This document shows positions 34,301 to 54,185 of a stretch of DNA of 64,000 nt, in pieces. The stretch lies in NCBI RefSeq assembly GCF_006337125.1, contig NZ_CP040887.1:124001-188000 (forward strand), given 5' to 3'. The translations under genes and the position numbers were made by a program. Each line of letters begins with the position of its first letter. The stretch's first letter is position 1. The notes under the pieces were generated by a model. It was not told the DNA's origin and did not search any database. It worked only from the letters and a program-made list of their open reading frames with translations. This DNA comes from Serinicoccus chungangensis. Lineage in GTDB: Bacteria; Actinomycetota; Actinomycetes; Actinomycetales; Dermatophilaceae.

Positions 34301-34328
34301 CAATCCGCACCGGCGGTCAGCACCGAAT
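34301..34328 (+). promoter_or_regulatory. SigK-type ECF promoter (CAATCC-N16-CCGAAT) of the CHRD/sortase/CopD operon
   Basis: CAATCC (34301-34306) is followed by exactly 16 nt and CCGAAT (34323-34328). The known mycobacterial SigK consensus is CCATCC-N16/17-CCGAAT, so the -10 is identical and the -35 differs at one base. Predicted start near 34335 gives a leader of about 80 nt with AGAAGGA before the CHRD ATG. A SigK/RskA-like pair is encoded at 49.4 kb. The 12-mer AATCCGCACCGG inside it recurs upstream of the DUF4397 gene. Confidence 0.68.
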
Positions 34329-34416: not shown

Positions 34417-35193
34417 ATGAACCTCTCTCGCAAGCTTCTCGCCGTCCCGGCCGCCGGTGCGGCTGTCCTCATGATGACCGCGGCCCCGGCGCTGGCCTCG
34501 TCCGCCGCCGGTGAGGGCATGGCTGACCTGCAGCCGGTCCCCGTCAACGACGCGCCCGGCTCGGGCTCGGCCATGATCACGATGAACGGCACCACGCTGG
34601 ACTTCACCCTCGCCTACCAGGGCCTGCTGGCGGACGCCCCGCACGCCGCGCACATCCACTACGCCGGGGACGCGGCCAACATGTGCCCCACGGCCGAGGA
34701 CGACGCGGACGGCGACGGCTTCCTCACCACGACCGAGGGTGCCCCGTCCTACGGTGGCATCAAGGTCTCGCTGACCACCGAGGGCGACACCAGCCCGGAC
34801 TCGGGCCTGGCGGTCGACCGCTTCGGTGTCGGTGACGACGTCAGCTACTCCCGCGGTGGGGTCGAGGTCGACCAGGAGACCGCGGACGCGCTCGCCGACG
34901 GTGAGGCCGTCGTCGTCGTCCACGGTGTGGACCACGACGGCAGCGGCGCCTACGACGAGGGCGACCGCGGCATGTCCGACCTGGACCCCTCGCTGCCCGG
35001 TGAGGCGACCGACCCCGCGCTGTGCGGCGTCGTCGAGGTCTCCCAGATGGGTGGCGTCCCCGGTGGTGGTGTCGAGACCGGTCAGGCTCCCGTCGACGGT
35101 CAGAACCTCGGTCTGATCGCCGCCGGTGGTGTGGCCCTCGCCGCGGGTGGTGCGCTGCTCGTGTCGCGTCGCCGCAGCGCCGACCAGAGCTGA
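34417..35193 (+). CDS. CHRD-domain cell-surface protein
   Basis: 258-residue exported protein. The signal peptide has a basic start (MNLSRKLL), a hydrophobic core and cleavage near ALA-SSA. The body is a CHRD-type domain with APHAAHIHYAG and an Asp-rich loop (EDDADGDGF) that could bind metal. It ends with GGVETGQAPVDGQ, a hydrophobic helix and SRRRSADQS: a sortase-substrate layout without LPXTG. It is followed 24 bp later by a class F-type sortase and then a CopD-like protein, so it is probably anchored by that sortase. ATG 34417 has AGAAGGA upstream; the ATG at 34381 is upstream leader. Confidence 0.85.
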   Translation: MNLSRKLLAVPAAGAAVLMMTAAPALASSAAGEGMADLQPVPVNDAPGSGSAMITMNGTTLDFTLAYQGLLADAPHAAHIHYAGDAANMCPTAEDDADGDGFLTTTEGAPSYGGIKVSLTTEGDTSPDSGLAVDRFGVGDDVSYSRGGVEVDQETADALADGEAVVVVHGVDHDGSGAYDEGDRGMSDLDPSLPGEATDPALCGVVEVSQMGGVPGGGVETGQAPVDGQNLGLIAAGGVALAAGGALLVSRRRSADQS

Positions 35194-35217: not shown

Positions 35218-36030
35218 ATGACTGACGACGTCGGGCGGCCGGGCGCGCACCGTGCTGCCCGGCGTCGCGGCCCTGTCCTCCCCACGGTGGCCGCCCTCGT
35301 GCTCATGCTCGGGGGCGGCACCGCCGTGGCGGTCGGGGCCGGTCCCGCGCCCTCGCCGGCACCCCCGACCCTGGCCGAGGGTGCCTCGGCCACGCGGTCC
35401 CCGAGCCCGCAGCCGGGCTCCACCGCGCCGACGCCGGCGCCCCCGTCCTCCGAGCCCACCACCGGGTCCGACGACCCGGGTCGGGCCGACCCGGGCCCCG
35501 TGTCGCCGGCGGATCCCCCGGCGCGGGCCGCCGACGGCGACGACTCCGCCTCCTCTGACGACGCCGCCGAGGACGTCGCGCCGGTCGCCGAACCCGCCTC
35601 GGTCTCCCTGCCCACCATCGGCGTGACCTCCCACCTGCTGCACCTCGGTCTCGACCCCGACGGCGCCCTGCAGGTCCCCCAGGGAGACGACTACGACACC
35701 GCCGCCTGGTACGACGGTTCCCCCCGCCCCGGCCAGGACGGCCCCGCCGTCATCCTCGGCCACGTCAGCGGCGCCGCCGGCCCCTCCGTCTTCTTCGACC
35801 TCGCCCGCCTCCAGGTCGGCGACACCGTCGAGGTCTCCCGCGCCGACGGCAGCACCGCGACCTTCGAGATCTACGACCTCCAGCAGTACCCCAAGGACTC
35901 CTTCCCCACCGCCCGCGTCTACGGCAACACCCCCGGACCCGAGCTCCGCCTCATCACCTGCGGCGGCACCTTCTCCGACACCACCGGCCACTACGACGAC
36001 AACATCATCGTCTTCGCCCGCGAGGCGTGA
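35218..36030 (+). CDS. Class F-type sortase
   Basis: 270-residue sortase with an N-terminal membrane anchor (about residues 20-45), a long Pro/Ser/Asp-rich spacer to about residue 125, and a catalytic beta-barrel. The active-site His lies at about 182 (VILGHVSG) and Cys at about 248 (LITCGG), followed by GHYDDNIIVFA. Actinobacterial sortases of this short C-terminal type are placed in class F; their sorting motif is poorly known. Its neighbour, the CHRD protein, has a membrane helix and Arg tail but no LPXTG, making it the natural substrate candidate. Confidence 0.88.
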   Translation: MTDDVGRPGAHRAARRRGPVLPTVAALVLMLGGGTAVAVGAGPAPSPAPPTLAEGASATRSPSPQPGSTAPTPAPPSSEPTTGSDDPGRADPGPVSPADPPARAADGDDSASSDDAAEDVAPVAEPASVSLPTIGVTSHLLHLGLDPDGALQVPQGDDYDTAAWYDGSPRPGQDGPAVILGHVSGAAGPSVFFDLARLQVGDTVEVSRADGSTATFEIYDLQQYPKDSFPTARVYGNTPGPELRLITCGGTFSDTTGHYDDNIIVFAREA

Positions 36031-36033
36031 GCG

Positions 36034-37617
36034 ATGGCCCTGTCCCCCCTGGAACGGCCCTCCACCGACCGCCGGGGCGCCGCGGTCGAGGAGCGTGACC
36101 TCGCCCGCCCGCTCCCGCCGCCGGTCCCTCCGGCAGCACCGGGGCGACCTCGGTCGAGGGCCGCGGTCGCGACCGCCGTCGCGGTGCCGGTGGTCGTCCT
36201 CGTGGCGGCCCTCCTCGTGGGTGGGGGTGCACCGACGCCGCCTCCCGGCGACCTGCCCGACGCCGGGGCCCTGACCGGCTGGGGACTTCCCGTGACCGAC
36301 CTCGTGGTCCGGGTGCTGGCCGTCCTCACCATCGGCCAGCTCCTCTTCTCGGCGGTGCTCGCGCCCCAGGCAGCCGGGCGGCCCTCGCCCGGGTCCCTCC
36401 GGTCGCTGCGCGGGGCCTCCTGGACGGCGGCGGGCTGGCTGGCCGCCGCGACGGTGGCCCTGGTGCTGACGGCGAGCACCGTCTACGGGGTGCCGGTGTG
36501 GCGGCTCTCGGTCCAGTCCGTGGTGGCGGTGCTGACCGCCCTGCCGGTCGGTCGGGCCACGCTCGCCGTCATGGCCCTGCTCCTGCTGGTCGCGGTCGGC
36601 GCCGCGGCGCTGCTGCGGTGGCGATCCCCCGGGATCCGCCCGGCGGCGGGGGTGCTCCTGGCTGCCGCGTGCGGCGCGGTCCTGGTGCCGGTCGTGCTCG
36701 ACGGTCACTCCGCCGCGGCCGACAACCACGTGCCCGCCGTCCTGGCCCTGGCGGTCCACGTGCTCACCGCCAGCCTGTGGGTGGGCGGTCTGGCGGCCCT
36801 GCTGCTGCACGGGCGCGGCCGCGTCGAGAGCGTCCAGGCGGTGCGCCGCTTCAGCGCCCTGGCCCTGGGCTGCGTGCTGCTGCTCCTGCTGTCCGGCGTG
36901 GCATCGGCCCTGCTGGTCGCGGGCGCGCCGTCCTGGGCGTGGGCGGGTGAGGGGTGGGTCCAGCTGCTGGCCGTCAAGAGCCTGCTGCTGGTCGTCCTCG
37001 CCCTGCTCGGAGCGCAGCACCGCCGGGCCACCATCCCGGCGCTGGCGGCAGGGAGGCCCCGGGCGTTCGTGCGCCTGGGGGCCGTGGAGGTCGCCCTGAT
37101 GACGGTGACGGTCGCGGTCTCGGTGGCCCTGGGTTCCTCCCCGGCCCCCGCCTCGTCGCCCACCCCGGAGGAGGGTGCTCAGGCCGCGGCGCCCCAGGAC
37201 CCCGGGGCCCGGGACGAGACGTCGGGCGCGCGCGAGGGGCAGGACGACCCGCAGGGCCCGGCCGAGGACCCGGCGACCGAGGACGGCCCCGTCGAGGAGC
37301 CCCTCGTCGAGGACATGAGCGGCCACGACCACGGCGACCTGTCCGTCACCGTCCTCGTCGACGACGAGCGTTTCCACGTCACCGCGGGCGTCCGACCCGG
37401 CCAGCGGGTGACCGTCTACAACAGCAGCGACGCCGCCGCCACCATCACCGCGGACGGCCCCGACGACGGCGGCGCCTTCGACGTCGACGTCCCGGCCCGG
37501 ACCTTCGTCACCTTCGCCGCGCCCGACCGGGCGGGCGACTACGCCTTCGTCAGCCGACCCGACGGGGCGGAGGCCCCCGGCTTCGCCGACACCCTCCTCG
37601 TCCGCGCGGCCCCCTGA
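36034..37617 (+). CDS. CopD-like copper transport protein with C-terminal cupredoxin-like domain
   Basis: 527-residue membrane protein starting 3 bp after the sortase. About eight to nine transmembrane segments (roughly residues 45-370) include the CopD/YcnJ features: LDGHSAAADNHVPAVLALAVHVLTASLWVGGL region (key His in GHS, DNH and VHV) and a VKSLLLVVLALLGAQHR helix. An acidic linker (about 380-430, ends MSGHDHGDL) leads to an exported beta domain of about 95 residues resembling cupredoxins (TVYNSSDAAATITADG, DRAGDYAFVSRPDG), though no Cys ligand is visible. It likely handles copper at the membrane. The putative SigK-type promoter upstream would co-express it with the CHRD protein and sortase. 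Confidence 0.82.
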   Translation: MALSPLERPSTDRRGAAVEERDLARPLPPPVPPAAPGRPRSRAAVATAVAVPVVVLVAALLVGGGAPTPPPGDLPDAGALTGWGLPVTDLVVRVLAVLTIGQLLFSAVLAPQAAGRPSPGSLRSLRGASWTAAGWLAAATVALVLTASTVYGVPVWRLSVQSVVAVLTALPVGRATLAVMALLLLVAVGAAALLRWRSPGIRPAAGVLLAAACGAVLVPVVLDGHSAAADNHVPAVLALAVHVLTASLWVGGLAALLLHGRGRVESVQAVRRFSALALGCVLLLLLSGVASALLVAGAPSWAWAGEGWVQLLAVKSLLLVVLALLGAQHRRATIPALAAGRPRAFVRLGAVEVALMTVTVAVSVALGSSPAPASSPTPEEGAQAAAPQDPGARDETSGAREGQDDPQGPAEDPATEDGPVEEPLVEDMSGHDHGDLSVTVLVDDERFHVTAGVRPGQRVTVYNSSDAAATITADGPDDGGAFDVDVPARTFVTFAAPDRAGDYAFVSRPDGAEAPGFADTLLVRAAP

Positions 37618-46270: not shown

Positions 46271-46406
46271 GCTCAGCTCCTTGCGATCGGAGAACACGTC
46301 CAATGTGTGTTCAATGTTTTTCCACTATGGACCGCGCCGGGGAGCCGCGCAACCGCAGGATCCGGGAGGCCTTCCACAGCTTTCGCACAAACTGTGGACA
46401 AAGGCT

Positions 46407-46435
46407 GAATCCGCACCGGGGTGTCCGGACGTAGT
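46407..46435 (+). promoter_or_regulatory. Putative SigK-type promoter of the DUF4397/sortase pair
   Basis: GAATCC (46407-46412) is followed by 17 nt and CGTAGT (46430-46435). The 12-mer AATCCGCACCGG (46408-46419) is identical to the one in the CHRD operon promoter at 34302-34313. The -10 is a weaker match to CCGAAT than at 34.3 kb. Confidence 0.48.
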
Positions 46436-46488: not shown

Positions 46489-47301
46489 ATGCGGAAGATC
46501 ACTGCGACCACCACGGCGGCCTTGCTGGCCGGAGCCGGCACGGCGGCCCTCGCCACCCCGGCCATGGCGGACGAGCACGAGGCCACGGTCTCGGTCCTGC
46601 ACGCCGTACCGGGCCTCACGGTCGACGTCTACGTCAACGGCGAGGAGACCGTCCCCGACTTCGCGCCGGGCACGCTGACCGACCCCCTCATGCTGCCCGA
46701 GGGCACCTACGACGTGGAGGTCTACGCCGACGGCGACGACCCGGAGTCCGCCGAGCCGGCGATCTCCGCCGAGGGTCTGGAGGTGCCGGGCGGTGCGAAC
46801 CTCACCCTGGCCGCCCACCTGGCCGAGGACGGCACCCCGATGCTGTCCGCCTTCGTCAACGACACCTCCACGCTGGACGCCGGGCAGTCCCGGCTCACCG
46901 TCCGGCACGCCGCCGCCGCCCCGGCGGTCGACGTCCGTGCGGGTGGCAGCCCGGTGATCGAGGGCCTGACCAACCCCAACGAGGAGGTGCTGAGCCTCGA
47001 CGCCGGCACCGTGTCGGCCGACGTGGTGCTCGCGGGCACCGAGGACGTCGTCATCGGCCCGGCCGACCTGGACCTCGCCGAGGGCACCAACACGATCGTC
47101 TACGCGTGGGGCTCCGCCGAGGAGGGCACCCTCGACCTGGCGGTGCAGACCATCGACGGCCTGCACGGCGACCCGGGCGGCGTGCCCTCCGGCCAGGGTG
47201 GCATCGCCACCTCGACCGGGGTGCTCACCGTGCTCCTCATGGCCGGCGCTGCGGGCGCGGTGCTCGCCGGCAGCCGCCTGGTCCGTCGCGAGGTCGCCTG
47301 A
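46489..47301 (+). CDS. DUF4397-domain cell-surface protein
   Basis: 270-residue exported protein. Signal peptide MRKITATTTAALLAGAGTAA with cleavage near AMA-DEH. Two tandem DUF4397-type beta-sandwich units follow (TVSVLHAVPGLTVDVYVNG and LTVRHAAAAPAVDVRAGG as their first strands). The C-terminus has GGVPSGQGGIATSTG, a hydrophobic helix and SRLVRREVA, again a sortase-like sorting tail without LPXTG. It is followed 3 bp later by a class F-type sortase. ATG 46489 has GAAGGAG upstream. It is probably sortase-anchored; binding function unknown. Confidence 0.88.
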   Translation: MRKITATTTAALLAGAGTAALATPAMADEHEATVSVLHAVPGLTVDVYVNGEETVPDFAPGTLTDPLMLPEGTYDVEVYADGDDPESAEPAISAEGLEVPGGANLTLAAHLAEDGTPMLSAFVNDTSTLDAGQSRLTVRHAAAAPAVDVRAGGSPVIEGLTNPNEEVLSLDAGTVSADVVLAGTEDVVIGPADLDLAEGTNTIVYAWGSAEEGTLDLAVQTIDGLHGDPGGVPSGQGGIATSTGVLTVLLMAGAAGAVLAGSRLVRREVA

Positions 47302-47304
47302 CCC

Positions 47305-48066
47305 TTGCACCGGACCCAGCCCCGCCGCGGCCGGCTCTCGCCGGCCGCGGCGGCGGCCCTGCTCCTCAGTCTCGCGGTCGTCGTCGGGGCCCTCTGGGGC
47401 CTGCAGCGAGGACCGCTCCCGGCTGCTGCCGACTTCGGGTCGCCCGCCCCGGCGCCCACGACCGGTCCGGCAGCACCGGGCGCCGCGGTGGACCCTGTCC
47501 CCACCGCGGCGCCACCGGGGGGCGGAGGGGACGACGCACCCGCGGGGCAGGCCGCCCCGCGGGTCGTCGTGCCCCCACCCGATGTCCGGGACGCCTCGGT
47601 CGAGGCCGCCGCCGCGCCCCGGCAGCCCGCTCCCACGCGGCTGCTGGCACCCACGCTCGGTCTCGACGTGCCCCTGGACGCGGTCGGGGTCACCGGGGAC
47701 GGGCTCATGGAGATCCCCGAGGACGCCGACCGGGCCGGGTGGTACCGGCACGGTCCGGCCCCGGGGGAGGACGGCTCCGCGGTCATCGCCGGCCACGTCG
47801 ACGACCGGGAGGGGCCGGGGGCGTTCCTCGCCCTCAACAGTGCCGAGCAGGGCACCCCGGTCACCATCGTCCGTGAGGACGGTTCCCGGCTCGACTACGT
47901 CGTCACCGCACGGCGGACGACCGACAAGAAGGAGCTCCCCGTCGATGACCTCTTCGACCGTGAGGGAGAGCAGCGCCTGCAGCTCATCACCTGCACCGGC
48001 GAGTGGTCCGAGCGTGCCGGGAGCTACACCGACAACCTCGTCATCACCGCCACTCCGGCGCCCTGA
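47305..48066 (+). CDS. Class F-type sortase (second copy)
   Basis: 253-residue sortase with an N-terminal membrane anchor (about 10-32), a Pro/Ala-rich spacer, and a catalytic domain with His in VIAGHVDD and Cys at about 230 in LITCTGEW. It resembles the 35.2-kb sortase in layout and is again directly downstream of its probable substrate. The start is a rare TTG (47305), 3 bp after the DUF4397 stop; the frame offers no better start near the membrane segment. Confidence 0.86.
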   Translation: MHRTQPRRGRLSPAAAAALLLSLAVVVGALWGLQRGPLPAAADFGSPAPAPTTGPAAPGAAVDPVPTAAPPGGGGDDAPAGQAAPRVVVPPPDVRDASVEAAAAPRQPAPTRLLAPTLGLDVPLDAVGVTGDGLMEIPEDADRAGWYRHGPAPGEDGSAVIAGHVDDREGPGAFLALNSAEQGTPVTIVREDGSRLDYVVTARRTTDKKELPVDDLFDREGEQRLQLITCTGEWSERAGSYTDNLVITATPAP

Positions 48067-49415: not shown

Positions 49416-49955
49416 ATGAGCGTGGAGGACGGCGATGACAACGCGATCGCCGTGGCGTGGGAGAACGCCGACCCGGACGCGCTCGAGCGTGCCTACCGCC
49501 GCTGGGGCGGCCTCGTGCACGGTCTCGCCCTACGCGCCGTGGGCCCGGACGACGCCGACGACGTCACCCAGGCGGTCTTCGTGTCCGCCTGGCGGGGGCG
49601 GGCGACCTACGACCGCGGCTCGGCCCCGCTCGGCGCGTGGCTCGTGGGCATCACCCGGCGCCGCATCGCCGACCAGCTGCGCACCCGCCAGCGGCAGGCG
49701 CCGGTCGCGCAGGAGCAGCCCGACGTCGCGGACCGCAGCGCCTGGACGGCGGCCGACAGCACCGACCTGCTCAGCATCTACGAGGAGCTGGAGCGCATCG
49801 GCGACCCGCAGCGCCGCATCATCCTGCTCGCCTACGTGGAGGACCTCACGCAGCGGGAGATCGCCGAACGGCTCGACCTGCCGCTGGGCACGGTCAAGAC
49901 CCATACGAACCGAACCCTGGCACGGCTCCGAACTCTCCTCGGAGGTGCGCGATGA
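49416..49955 (+). CDS. sigK: ECF RNA polymerase sigma factor, SigK-like
   Basis: 179-residue ECF sigma factor. Region 2 (about 20-90) has DDADDVTQAVFVSAW, the polymerase-binding and -10-recognition segment. Region 4 (about 115-175) has LLAYVEDLTQREIAERLDLPLGTVKTHTNRTLARL, the -35-reading helix-turn-helix (key words LTQREIAERL and GTVKTHT). It overlaps the RskA-like anti-sigma gene by 4 bp and sits upstream of the flavoprotein/DUF1365/UfaA1-like trio, the same company the mycobacterial sigK locus keeps. The symbol rests on that context plus matching promoters and is less certain than the family call. Confidence 0.88.
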   Translation: MSVEDGDDNAIAVAWENADPDALERAYRRWGGLVHGLALRAVGPDDADDVTQAVFVSAWRGRATYDRGSAPLGAWLVGITRRRIADQLRTRQRQAPVAQEQPDVADRSAWTAADSTDLLSIYEELERIGDPQRRIILLAYVEDLTQREIAERLDLPLGTVKTHTNRTLARLRTLLGGAR

Positions 49956-50686
49956 ACCACGATGAGCGGTATGCCGACCGGCCCGCCGACGGCTCCGCCC
50001 CGGAACGCGCCGCGGAGCTGCTGGCGCGCGCCGGGGACCTGGACGAGGCGCCCGGGGACGCGGTGTGGCAGCGCATCCGCGCCGAGATCGAGGGCGACGG
50101 CACGGCCGGCGAGGACCAGCTCGCCCACCGTCGGCGCTCCACGGGCGCCCGAGCGCGCCACCGGCCCGGTCGCTGGTCCCTGCTCGCCGCCGCGGCAGCC
50201 GGCGCCCTGGTGGCGTGGGTGGGCACCGAGGTGGTGGGGGCCGGGCCGCAGGACGAGGAGATCGTGGTCGCCGACGCGACGCTGGAGGACCTGCCCGACG
50301 CCGGCGAGGCCGTCGACGGCACCGCGGAGGTGGTCAGCGTCGACGGGGAGCGGCGCCTGCGCGTGCAGCTGGAGGAGCTGCCGGACACCGGCGACGGCTA
50401 CCTCGAGGTCTGGCTGCTGCGCCCCGACGTGAGCGGCATGGTCACCGTCGGCGTCATCTCCGGCACGACGGCCGAGTTCAGCCTGCCGGCGTCGGTCGAC
50501 CTGGACGAGTACCCCGTCGTCGACATCTCCCGCGAGCAGCTCGACGGCGACCCCGCCCACGGGGGCCGCAGCGTCGTGCGCGGAGAGCTCGGCACGGCCT
50601 CGGCGGCGGTCGACGACCCGCCATCCGTCGCCACCCCCCTCCTGCCCGACCGCCCGACCCGCACCGACCGAGAGGCATCCCCATGA
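49952..50686 (+). CDS. rskA: Anti-sigma-K factor RskA-like membrane protein
   Basis: 244-residue anti-sigma factor. A short cytoplasmic anti-sigma region (about 1-65: ERAAELLARAGDLDEAPGDAVW) is followed by one transmembrane helix (about 72-92) and an exported RskA-type domain (about 100-225) with GYLEVWLLRPDVSGMVTVGVI and SLPASVDL. It would hold the overlapping sigma factor inactive until regulated proteolysis. No zinc HXXXCXXC motif is seen. Its stop overlaps the next gene (ATGA). The start overlaps the sigma-factor stop (ATGA). Confidence 0.88.
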   Translation: MNHDERYADRPADGSAPERAAELLARAGDLDEAPGDAVWQRIRAEIEGDGTAGEDQLAHRRRSTGARARHRPGRWSLLAAAAAGALVAWVGTEVVGAGPQDEEIVVADATLEDLPDAGEAVDGTAEVVSVDGERRLRVQLEELPDTGDGYLEVWLLRPDVSGMVTVGVISGTTAEFSLPASVDLDEYPVVDISREQLDGDPAHGGRSVVRGELGTASAAVDDPPSVATPLLPDRPTRTDREASP

Positions 50687-52043: not shown

Positions 52044-52070
52044 CAATCCGTTCGTGCCGACGGCACGAAC
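52044..52070 (+). promoter_or_regulatory. Putative SigK-type promoter of the flavoprotein/DUF1365/methyltransferase operon
   Basis: CAATCC (52044-52049) is followed by 15 nt and ACGAAC (52065-52070), a partial match to CCGAAT. Transcription would start at about 52077-52078, which is the ATG itself (leaderless). The spacer contains the perfect palindrome at 52051-52069. Confidence 0.5.
52051..52069. promoter_or_regulatory. 19-bp perfect palindrome TTCGTGCCG-A-CGGCACGAA
   Basis: TTCGTGCCG and CGGCACGAA are exact complements around a single A. With no loop, it is better read as a DNA operator than a terminator. It fills the spacer of the predicted promoter, so a bound dimer would block polymerase. 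The binding protein is unknown. Confidence 0.6.
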
Positions 52071-52077
52071 ACCCCCC

Positions 52078-53433
52078 ATGACCACCGCCACGACGAGGAC
52101 CCCCGCCCCCGACGCGGCCGACCACCGACCCACCGTCGCCGTGGTCGGTGCCGGCGTCGCGGGGCTGAGCGCGGCATACCACCTGCGCCACACCCACCGG
52201 GTGCTGCTGCTCGAGTCCGACGCCCGCCTGGGCGGCCACGCCGACACCCACGACGTGGTCACCGACCGGGGGGAGCGGCTGGCGGTCGACTCCGGGTTCA
52301 TCGTGCACAACGACCGCACCTACCCGGTCCTGCGGAGGATCTTCGACGAGCTCGACATCCCCACGCAGGAGACGGAGATGTCGATGTCGATCACCTGCGA
52401 CGGGTGCGGGCTGTCCTTCGCCGGCGCCAAGGGCCTCAGCGGGCTGCTGGCGCAGCCGACCCGGGTGCTGGACGGTCGCTACCGTCGGCTGCTGCGCGAG
52501 GTGCCCCGCTTCCACCGCGCGGCGCTCGCCGAGCTCGCGGCCGCCCGCCGCGGCGAGGCCGCGCCGATCACCTGGGGAGGCTTCCTCGAGCGCGGTCGCT
52601 TCGACCCCTACTTCGTGCAGCACTACGCCATCCCGCTCATCTCCTGCGTGTGGTCCTCCGGGCACGAGGACGCCGCGGCCTACCCCGCCCACCACCTCTT
52701 CGAGTTCCTCGACCACCACGGCCTGCTCACCGTGGGCGGGTCGCCGACCTGGCGCACGGTCGTCGGCGGCAGCCGGGTCTACGTCGAGCGCATCCGTGAG
52801 GCGCTGCTGGCGGCGGGCTCGACCGTGCGCACCGGTGCCCCCGTGACGGCGGTGCGCCGGCACGCGGACCGGGTCGAGGTGAGCACCGGTGGTGCCGCGC
52901 CGGCCACCGAGACCGTCGACCGGGTGGTCCTCGCGACGCACGCGGACGTCGCCCTGCGGGTGCTCACCGACGCCACCGACGCCGAGCGCGCCGACCTCGG
53001 GTCCATCCGCTACTCGCTCAACCCGACCGTGCTGCACACCGACCCGGGGGTGCTGCCGACCGCGCGCCGCGCCAGGGCGGCGTGGAACTACCGCCTCACG
53101 GGGTGCGAGGCCCGGGACGACCGGGTGCTCGTGAGCTACTGGATGAACACCCTGCACCGGCTGGGTCCCGAGGTCCGTGACGACTACGTCGTCACCCTCA
53201 ACCACGTCGGGCGGGTCGACCCGCGCCGGGTGCTCGTGGAGCGGGAGTACGCTCATCCGGTGTTCACGCACGAGGCGATCGAGGCCGCGGCGCGACTGCG
53301 CGAGGCGGGAGGGCCGAGGCTGGCCTACGCCGGGGCGCACCTGGGCTGGGGCTTCCACGAGGACGGCGCACGCTCGGGTCTGCAGGCCGTGCGGCGGCTG
53401 GAGGGGGAGCTCGCGATCGGCGGGGTGGCATGA
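52078..53433 (+). CDS. FAD-dependent oxidoreductase (NAD_binding_8; Rv0449c-like)
   Basis: 451-residue flavoprotein. VAVVGAGVAGLSAAYHLR and ESDARLGGHADTHDV are the FAD-binding motifs; AGAHLGWGFHEDGARSGLQA near the C-terminus is the second flavin contact. The GGHADTHDV variant marks the group that accompanies DUF1365 and CFA-like genes in many bacteria, including the mycobacterial sigK locus. It probably oxidises or desaturates a lipid acyl chain prior to or after methylation; the reaction is inference. First gene of a three-gene overlapping operon. Confidence 0.9.
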   Translation: MTTATTRTPAPDAADHRPTVAVVGAGVAGLSAAYHLRHTHRVLLLESDARLGGHADTHDVVTDRGERLAVDSGFIVHNDRTYPVLRRIFDELDIPTQETEMSMSITCDGCGLSFAGAKGLSGLLAQPTRVLDGRYRRLLREVPRFHRAALAELAAARRGEAAPITWGGFLERGRFDPYFVQHYAIPLISCVWSSGHEDAAAYPAHHLFEFLDHHGLLTVGGSPTWRTVVGGSRVYVERIREALLAAGSTVRTGAPVTAVRRHADRVEVSTGGAAPATETVDRVVLATHADVALRVLTDATDAERADLGSIRYSLNPTVLHTDPGVLPTARRARAAWNYRLTGCEARDDRVLVSYWMNTLHRLGPEVRDDYVVTLNHVGRVDPRRVLVEREYAHPVFTHEAIEAAARLREAGGPRLAYAGAHLGWGFHEDGARSGLQAVRRLEGELAIGGVA

Positions 53434-54185
53434 GGAGTGCGGTCCTCGAGCCGCCGCCGGTGCCCGCCCTGGTCGTCGGGACGGTGGCGCACACCCGGCA
53501 CCGACCGGTGCACCACGCCTTCCGCTACCGCGCCTACCAGTGGCTCGTCGACCTCGACGACCTGCCCACGCACCGCGGGTGGCGGCGCCTCGTCAGCGGG
53601 TTCTCCGCGAGCGACCACCTGGACGGGGGCCGGCTCGGCGGCGGGCTGCGCGGTGACCTCGAACGCTTCTGCGCCCGGCGCGGGGTGACGGTGGCGCCGG
53701 ACGACCAGGTGCTCATGCTCGCCAACGCGCGGGTGCTGGGCTACGTCTTCGACCCGCTCACCGTGTTCTGGGTGCTGACCAGCGGCGGAGACCTGCGCAC
53801 GGTCGTCCTCGAGGTGCACAACACCTACGGCGAGCGGCACGGCTACCTGCTCGACCTGGACGGGGCCGGCCGAGGGGGGATGGACAAGGAGTTCTACGTC
53901 TCCCCCTTCAACGACACCCGCGGGCGGTATGCCGTGTCCCTGCGCCTGGCCCCGGACCGGGTCGTCGTGGGCATCGGCCTCGACCGCGACGGCGAGCGGG
54001 TCATCACCGCGGTGACCGACGGCAGACCCCGCCCGGCGACGCGGGCGGCGGTGGCCCGGGTCGTGCGTCGGCACGCCCTCATGCCGCAGGTCGTCACGCT
54101 CCTCATCCGGCTGCACGGGCTGCGCCTGTGGCGCCGGCTGCCGATCCACGACCGACCCACCCACCCGAAGGAGGCCGTCCGATGA
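53430..54185 (+). CDS. DUF1365-domain protein
   Basis: 251-residue DUF1365 protein. Landmarks: VVGTVAHTRHRPVHHAFRYRAY, ARVLGYVFDPLTVFWVL, VEVHNTYGERHGYLLD and DKEFYVSPFNDTRGRY (short words HTRHRP, GYVFDPLTVFW and KEFYVSPFN). Soluble; function unknown but always found with CFA-type methyltransferases and flavoproteins. It overlaps both neighbours by 4 bp, so the three proteins act in one lipid modification pathway. Confidence 0.9.
   Translation: MRSAVLEPPPVPALVVGTVAHTRHRPVHHAFRYRAYQWLVDLDDLPTHRGWRRLVSGFSASDHLDGGRLGGGLRGDLERFCARRGVTVAPDDQVLMLANARVLGYVFDPLTVFWVLTSGGDLRTVVLEVHNTYGERHGYLLDLDGAGRGGMDKEFYVSPFNDTRGRYAVSLRLAPDRVVVGIGLDRDGERVITAVTDGRPRPATRAAVARVVRRHALMPQVVTLLIRLHGLRLWRRLPIHDRPTHPKEAVR

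Follow-up and report, generated by a model that had tools for sequence, protein, structure and literature searches.

Introduction

Upstream of a predicted operon for a CHRD-domain surface protein, a sortase and a CopD-family membrane protein, the chromosome of Serinicoccus chungangensis carries an element that closely resembles a promoter of the mycobacterial sigma factor SigK, and a gene for an ECF sigma factor lies 15 kb away. This locus raises the question of which sigma factor reads the element, and of whether a conserved regulator has exchanged its secreted cargo. The window, by which we mean the whole stretch of 64,000 nucleotides that was analysed, contains the following features.

34301..34328, + strand: SigK-type promoter, −35 CAATCC and −10 CCGAAT (pattern search; conserved before CHRD genes)
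34417..35193, + strand: secreted protein with a CHRD domain and, at its C-terminus, GGVETG, a membrane helix and an Arg-rich tail (PF07452, E 3e-8)
35218..36030, + strand: class F sortase (NCBIfam NF033748, 194.7 bits, cut-off 166)
36034..37617, + strand: CopD-family membrane protein (PF05425, above cut-off)
46406..46435, + strand: TGAATCC-N17-CGTAGT, a promoter of another class, ahead of the DUF4397 gene (conserved in relatives)
46489..47301, + strand: DUF4397 surface protein (PF14344)
47305..48066, + strand: second sortase, class F-like (PF04203; NF033748 137.2 bits against a cut-off of 166)
49416..49955, + strand: ECF sigma factor, not SigK (50.3 bits to M. tuberculosis SigK, separate clade)
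49952..50686, + strand: anti-sigma factor of the window sigma factor, RskA_C only (PF10099 is the sole Pfam match at E 0.01)
52044..52070, + strand: second SigK-type site, CAATCC-N16-CGAAC, with 8 nt from the end of CGAA to the ATG of the amine-oxidase-family gene (pattern search)
52078..53433, + strand: FAD amine oxidoreductase (PF01593)
53430..54185: DUF1365 gene, after the amine oxidoreductase (PF07103)

The promoter element and its conservation

In the element at 34301–34328 (+ strand), CAATCC and CCGAAT are separated by the 16-nt spacer GCACCGGCGGTCAGCA; its first base lies 116 nt 5′ of the ATG at 34417, and transcription would be expected to start at about 34335. The mycobacterial SigK consensus, which we take to be CCATCC-N16/17-CCGAAT, differs from it by one base. 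The element also matches the SigK-type pattern C(C/A)ATCC, 16–17 nt, (C)CGAA(T/C), whose conservation was tested here. The sequence-only reading had taken these bases for a near-perfect SigK promoter and had named a chance-level frequency as a result that would speak against it; a search of the 3,463,442-base genome for CMATCC-N15-17-CCGAAT returned one match and the control none, which bears the motif out. The CHRD, sortase and CopD-family genes that it had placed 3′ of the motif were likewise recovered by PF07452, NF033748 and PF05425, the CopD-family protein reaching 75.3 of 195 bits with the CopD equivalog model NF033808. A literature search for a mycobacterial SigK promoter consensus found no relevant paper; the string CCATCC is absent from the available part of PMC7509140 and CCGAAT from that of PMC4821874, where published sigma factor consensus sequences are described as predicting poorly in M. 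tuberculosis. An Rfam scan of the window gave nothing at gathering scores.

Relaxation of the pattern to CAATCC-N16/17-CGAA yielded five sites in the genome and none in the control. These precede the CHRD–sortase–CopD genes (158301), the amine-oxidase-family gene (176044, which is window 52044), another CHRD–sortase pair (1155901) and a molybdopterin-oxidoreductase/fasciclin gene pair (2004163), or lie inside sigK itself (1154781). The looser AATCC-N15-18-CGWA gave 11 matches against 2. Over 38 genomes CAATCC-N16/17-CGAA occurs at 137 sites versus 23 in the control (table summed by hand), so that single sites, above all those in other families, can be chance.

Analysis of related genomes revealed 33 CHRD matches in 19 of the 38, and 30 loci were used (L002–L031), including three that are weak or truncated at a contig end. 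The pattern C(A/C)ATCC-N15-18-CGAA(T/C/A) was found at most 250 nt upstream of the CHRD gene in 23 of the 30 (24 if CGAAG is counted), as compared with none in reversed sequences, none on the opposite strand and 10 of 9000 shuffles; the sites lie 78–149 nt ahead of the matched start. In other genera, 22 of 29 newly returned CHRD loci carry C(A/C/G)ATCC-N15-18-CGAA (reversed 0, opposite strand 2), and through shared ancestry all of these counts are less than independent. Even with CGAAG, the site is missing from six of the 30 near-relative matches, including the best match of G007 (83% identity) and a paralog in the genome itself (79% identity). Two genomes kept in the counts, G058 and G041, combine CAATCC with CCGTA and CCGGA instead and have no SigK over the cut-off. 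Sites of this type were found before CHRD genes in several families of the order, and this strong phylogenetic footprint indicates that 34301–34328 is very probably a genuine SigK-type promoter.

The paralog (G000:C1:1372199–1372969), a third CHRD gene, adjoins a sortase gene and has no SigK-type site within 250 nt upstream.

The probable SigK ortholog

Comparison with M. tuberculosis SigK revealed a match of 147.7 bits to a sigma factor encoded at genome C1:1154487–1155053, directly followed by a gene with RskA_N (28.3 bits, cut-off 27), zf-HC2 and RskA_C domains. This sigma factor is likely the SigK ortholog, and its gene lies about 1 Mb from the 34301–34328 site; the sigK–rskA pair adjoins another CHRD–sortase pair. 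Among named genomes, the SigK protein recorded for Serinicoccus chungangensis shares 95% identity with it. A sigma factor tree of 45 rows (23 SigK, 18 of the 22 relatives of the window sigma factor, three others and M. tuberculosis SigK) placed the 18 relatives of the window sigma factor on one side of a branch of length 1.89 with support 100/100, and M. tuberculosis SigK on the other, among the group of the 1.154 Mb sigma factor and next to G028, a placement that is to be read with the long branches and the make-up of the M. tuberculosis row in mind. Three rows of another ECF type (G013, G018 and G023) also group with SigK, but at the end of a long branch. Cysteine is missing from the matched stretch of SigK in all 16 rows of the genus, and the Cys133/183 switch of the M. 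tuberculosis protein is absent. Since some SigK proteins elsewhere are described as lacking redox cysteines in the available part of PMC7509140, cysteines do not define membership of SigK.

All 19 CHRD genomes among the 38, our own included, encode a protein that matches the 1.154 Mb sigma factor at 159 bits or more. CHRD genes were found in none of the seven congeners whose best SigK match is 106 bits or less, two of which are 75% and 84% complete; within the genus, 17/17 versus 0/7 gives a Fisher probability of 3e-6, uncorrected for kinship. In five of these seven congeners, here scored as SigK-negative, there are sigma factor genes of 85–106 bits, three of which group with SigK in the tree, and the line between presence and absence is therefore a gap in score. 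Across 297 genomes of the order, SigK at E 1e-38 occurs in 61 of 69 CHRD genomes versus 102 of 228 others (Fisher 2e-11; overlap tallied by hand from listings). Four of the eight CHRD genomes without SigK at this threshold (G067, G097, G139 and G209) belong to family f9 and have CHRD genes that carry the site; for these the cut-off may be too strict.

CHRD genes adjoin sigK–rskA in 15 of 17 genomes fetched (exceptions G011 and G015), and in G004 CHRD, sortase, CopD, sigK and rskA are contiguous. A scan of named genomes with a few peptide patterns gave, among the matches listed, two Serinicoccus loci, and seven other named actinobacterial loci (Agromyces, Frondihabitans and Nocardioides) showed no CHRD match beside sigK. 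G019, which is 75% complete, has SigK-type sites before fasciclin and amine-oxidase genes, yet no SigK match.

Further members of the predicted regulon

The sequence-only reading had proposed a conserved sigma factor with rewired surface cargo. The addition of CHRD–sortase cargo stands, whereas an exchange of cargo does not, as fasciclin and amine-oxidase genes also carry sites. The single fasciclin gene of the genome encodes a protein closest to MPT70 (1nyo, E 2e-58) and lies 3′ of the SigK-type site at 2004163; replacement of the cargo was rejected on these grounds. Among 15 fasciclin loci fetched and read by hand, 11 have such a site before the fasciclin gene or the gene(s) ahead of it (all but G007, G011, G021 and G037), and translation of eight order-wide loci revealed fasciclin-like frames, recognised by eye, between the upstream site and sigK. 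The SigK regulon thus looks to have been extended rather than replaced, as judged from these upstream sites.

Sites before the amine-oxidase gene were also found in G007, G010, G019 and G028, with CCGTCC variants in G009, G015 and G020; none was seen in G008, G011 and G012. The oxidoreductase at 52078–53433 presumably resembles Rv0449c, and we take the amine-oxidase and DUF1365 genes at 52078–54185 to resemble the mycobacterial sigK locus. The sigma factor encoded near this gene pair in the window is not SigK.

A SigK-type site inside sigK

The site at G000:C1:1154781–1154807 lies within the sigK coding sequence, ahead of rskA. Codons 99, 100, 106 and 107 read CAA TCC ... TAC GAA in 18 of 18 sigK genes, 17 from the genus and one from G034, and the same site is present in four of seven sigK genes examined from family f12. 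In genus g37 a different site, at a Trp-Gln-Ser position, reads TGG CAA TCC ... TCT or GCT CCG AA in 12 of 12 genes. In the loci of the genus itself the gene after sigK is RskA-like; in g37 this was checked with Pfam in one genome, G106.

An explanation by protein or codon constraint, in which the site marks no transcription start, deserves some weight, given that the site falls in coding sequence with conserved Gln, Ser, Tyr and Glu residues and that many of the sequences are related. We consider it unlikely on the following evidence. At other conserved positions of the 18 genes, CAA encodes Gln in only 3 of 35 cells and GAA encodes Glu in only 3 of 71. The g37 site is a different one, with CAA TCC throughout although CAA fills 12 of 72 cells at other conserved Gln columns of g37, and among four neighbouring-genus genes at this position three encode Gln-Ser as CAG TCG and one has Gln-Thr. 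Moreover, inside and upstream sites are nearly exclusive: of 83 sigK loci, 34 carry the site inside the gene and 40 carry one in the 1000 nt upstream of it; two carry both and 11 neither, 32 of the 34 inside-site genes thus having no upstream site in that range (in G034 another site lies 1194 nt upstream).

The 83 loci comprise 72 with reversed controls of 0 and 0 and 11 more; by origin they are 25 of 30 near loci (five of 37–41% identity were omitted), 27 order-wide loci and 31 picked from a 163-genome table, and these picks include eight g37 genomes that were added once an inside site had been seen in the first four, so that the proportion with an inside site does not come from random sampling.

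A transcription start at the inside site, the reading that we prefer to codon constraint, suggests that SigK would drive production of its own inhibitor. On balance we favour a scenario in which sigK genes gained SigK-dependent promoters within the coding sequence at two positions, mostly where the upstream site is missing, so that feedback through the inhibitor RskA only would have replaced positive autoregulation of sigK more than once, while the CHRD–sortase genes would have joined a presumably older fasciclin regulon. We found no report of an intragenic SigK-type site in sigK; the 2008 paper on SigK evolution and the ECF re-classification paper fell outside this search.

The sigK gene of G012 (L057) has an internal TAG in its reading frame, and the SigK-type sites inside it and before CHRD are kept.

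The sigma factor of the window

The sequence-only reading had paired the element with the sigma factor gene 15 kb away; a gene is indeed present at 49416–49955, but it is not SigK. Its pairing with the element by nearness was rejected owing to the weak match, the separate clade, the association with DUF4397 and the other promoter class. The best relative of this sigma factor (43–100% identity) is encoded no more than about 2.5 kb from a DUF4397 gene in 22 genomes (coordinates compared by hand). TGAATCC-N14-18-CGTA precedes DUF4397 in 13 of 13 genomes with an ortholog of at least 63% identity, ending in CGTAGT in 12, and a relaxed TG(A/C)ATCC with CGTA, CGGA or CGAA occurs in 18 of the 22 upstream regions (reversed 0), the misses being G009 and G020 (48–49% identity), G030 (57%) and G002, which has DUF4397 but matches the window sigma factor at 45 bits at best. 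The SigK-type site was found in none of the 22.

This module (46.4–50.7 kb) is like the CHRD system in having an ECF sigma factor, an RskA_C anti-sigma factor, a surface protein and a sortase within the window, but differs in sigma factor clade and promoter class. Since the −35 elements share AATCC and the DUF4397 and CHRD sites of this genome share AATCCGCACCGG, the CHRD promoter could be read by both sigma factors in overlapping regulons. Some cross-reading of the two classes, with their common AATCC, is possible, but we regard joint control as improbable, as the −10 elements of near relatives differ (CGAA versus CGTA) and each class tracks one sigma factor. Control by the window sigma factor on its own is less probable still. 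The gene is physically near the CHRD promoter, an RskA_C anti-sigma gene adjoins it and a second SigK-type site lies close by at 52044; against this stand its weak SigK match and separate clade, its DUF4397 association and the distribution of the two systems. CHRD sites are kept in G008, G010, G012, G022 and G034, where the best window-sigma match reaches just 68–74 bits, and G003, G013 and G018 have the window sigma factor, DUF4397 and TGAATCC..CGTA but no CHRD gene and no SigK match above 106 bits. That 34301–34328 is a chance or non-promoter element is scarcely credible: the loose pattern does have its 23 control matches, but CHRD loci within and beyond the near relatives carry sites where reversed controls give none, and each of the five sites of this genome lies ahead of, or within, a gene that would suit control by SigK.

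No LPXTG was seen in the C-termini of either surface protein family; CHRD proteins have GV-x-TG before the membrane helix in 21 of 21 cases and DUF4397 proteins GVP(S/T)G in 20 of 22. These are perhaps the sorting motifs of the neighbouring sortases.

Discussion

We propose, with a probability of about 0.86, that 34301–34328 is read by RNA polymerase with the SigK encoded at 1.154 Mb, restrained by RskA, and drives CHRD–sortase–CopD as part of a wider regulon. Membrane-bound RskA would release SigK, and free SigK would transcribe CHRD–sortase–CopD from this site and, from like sites, the CHRD–sortase pair next to sigK, the amine-oxidase-family gene and a predicted molybdopterin-oxidoreductase/fasciclin (MPT70-like) operon. 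From the site inside sigK it would transcribe rskA. After export, the CHRD protein would be attached to the wall by the neighbouring class F sortase.

The proposed circuit resembles the mycobacterial SigK–RskA regulon (mpt70, mpt83 and the Rv0449c promoter) in its SigK and RskA orthologs, its promoter type, and its MPT70-like fasciclin and amine-oxidase-family targets. It differs in its CHRD and class F sortase cargo, in the distance of sigK from the amine-oxidase gene and in the SigK-type site inside sigK; the M. tuberculosis system is described as autoregulated via the Rv0449c promoter in the available part of PMC7509140. The nearest precedent for an intragenic anti-sigma promoter is SigH/RshA of Corynebacterium glutamicum, where, according to the accessible part of PMC3489674, rshA alone is transcribed from a promoter that SigH controls and that lies within the coding region of sigH. 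Both systems would have a sigma-dependent promoter within the sigma factor gene that serves the anti-sigma gene only, but sigma factor and motif are different, the promoter was mapped experimentally in C. glutamicum and is predicted here, and sigK uses two positions in the gene in different lineages. A search for literature on CHRD with a sigma factor and a sortase found nothing relevant.

These results describe a predicted SigK regulon outside the mycobacteria in which sortase-linked CHRD proteins form an additional class of cargo, and illustrate that the nearest sigma factor gene can be the wrong partner. The putative promoter inside sigK poses a testable question, namely how a sigma factor circuit would pass from self-amplifying to self-limiting, for which the separate lineages would offer natural replicates.
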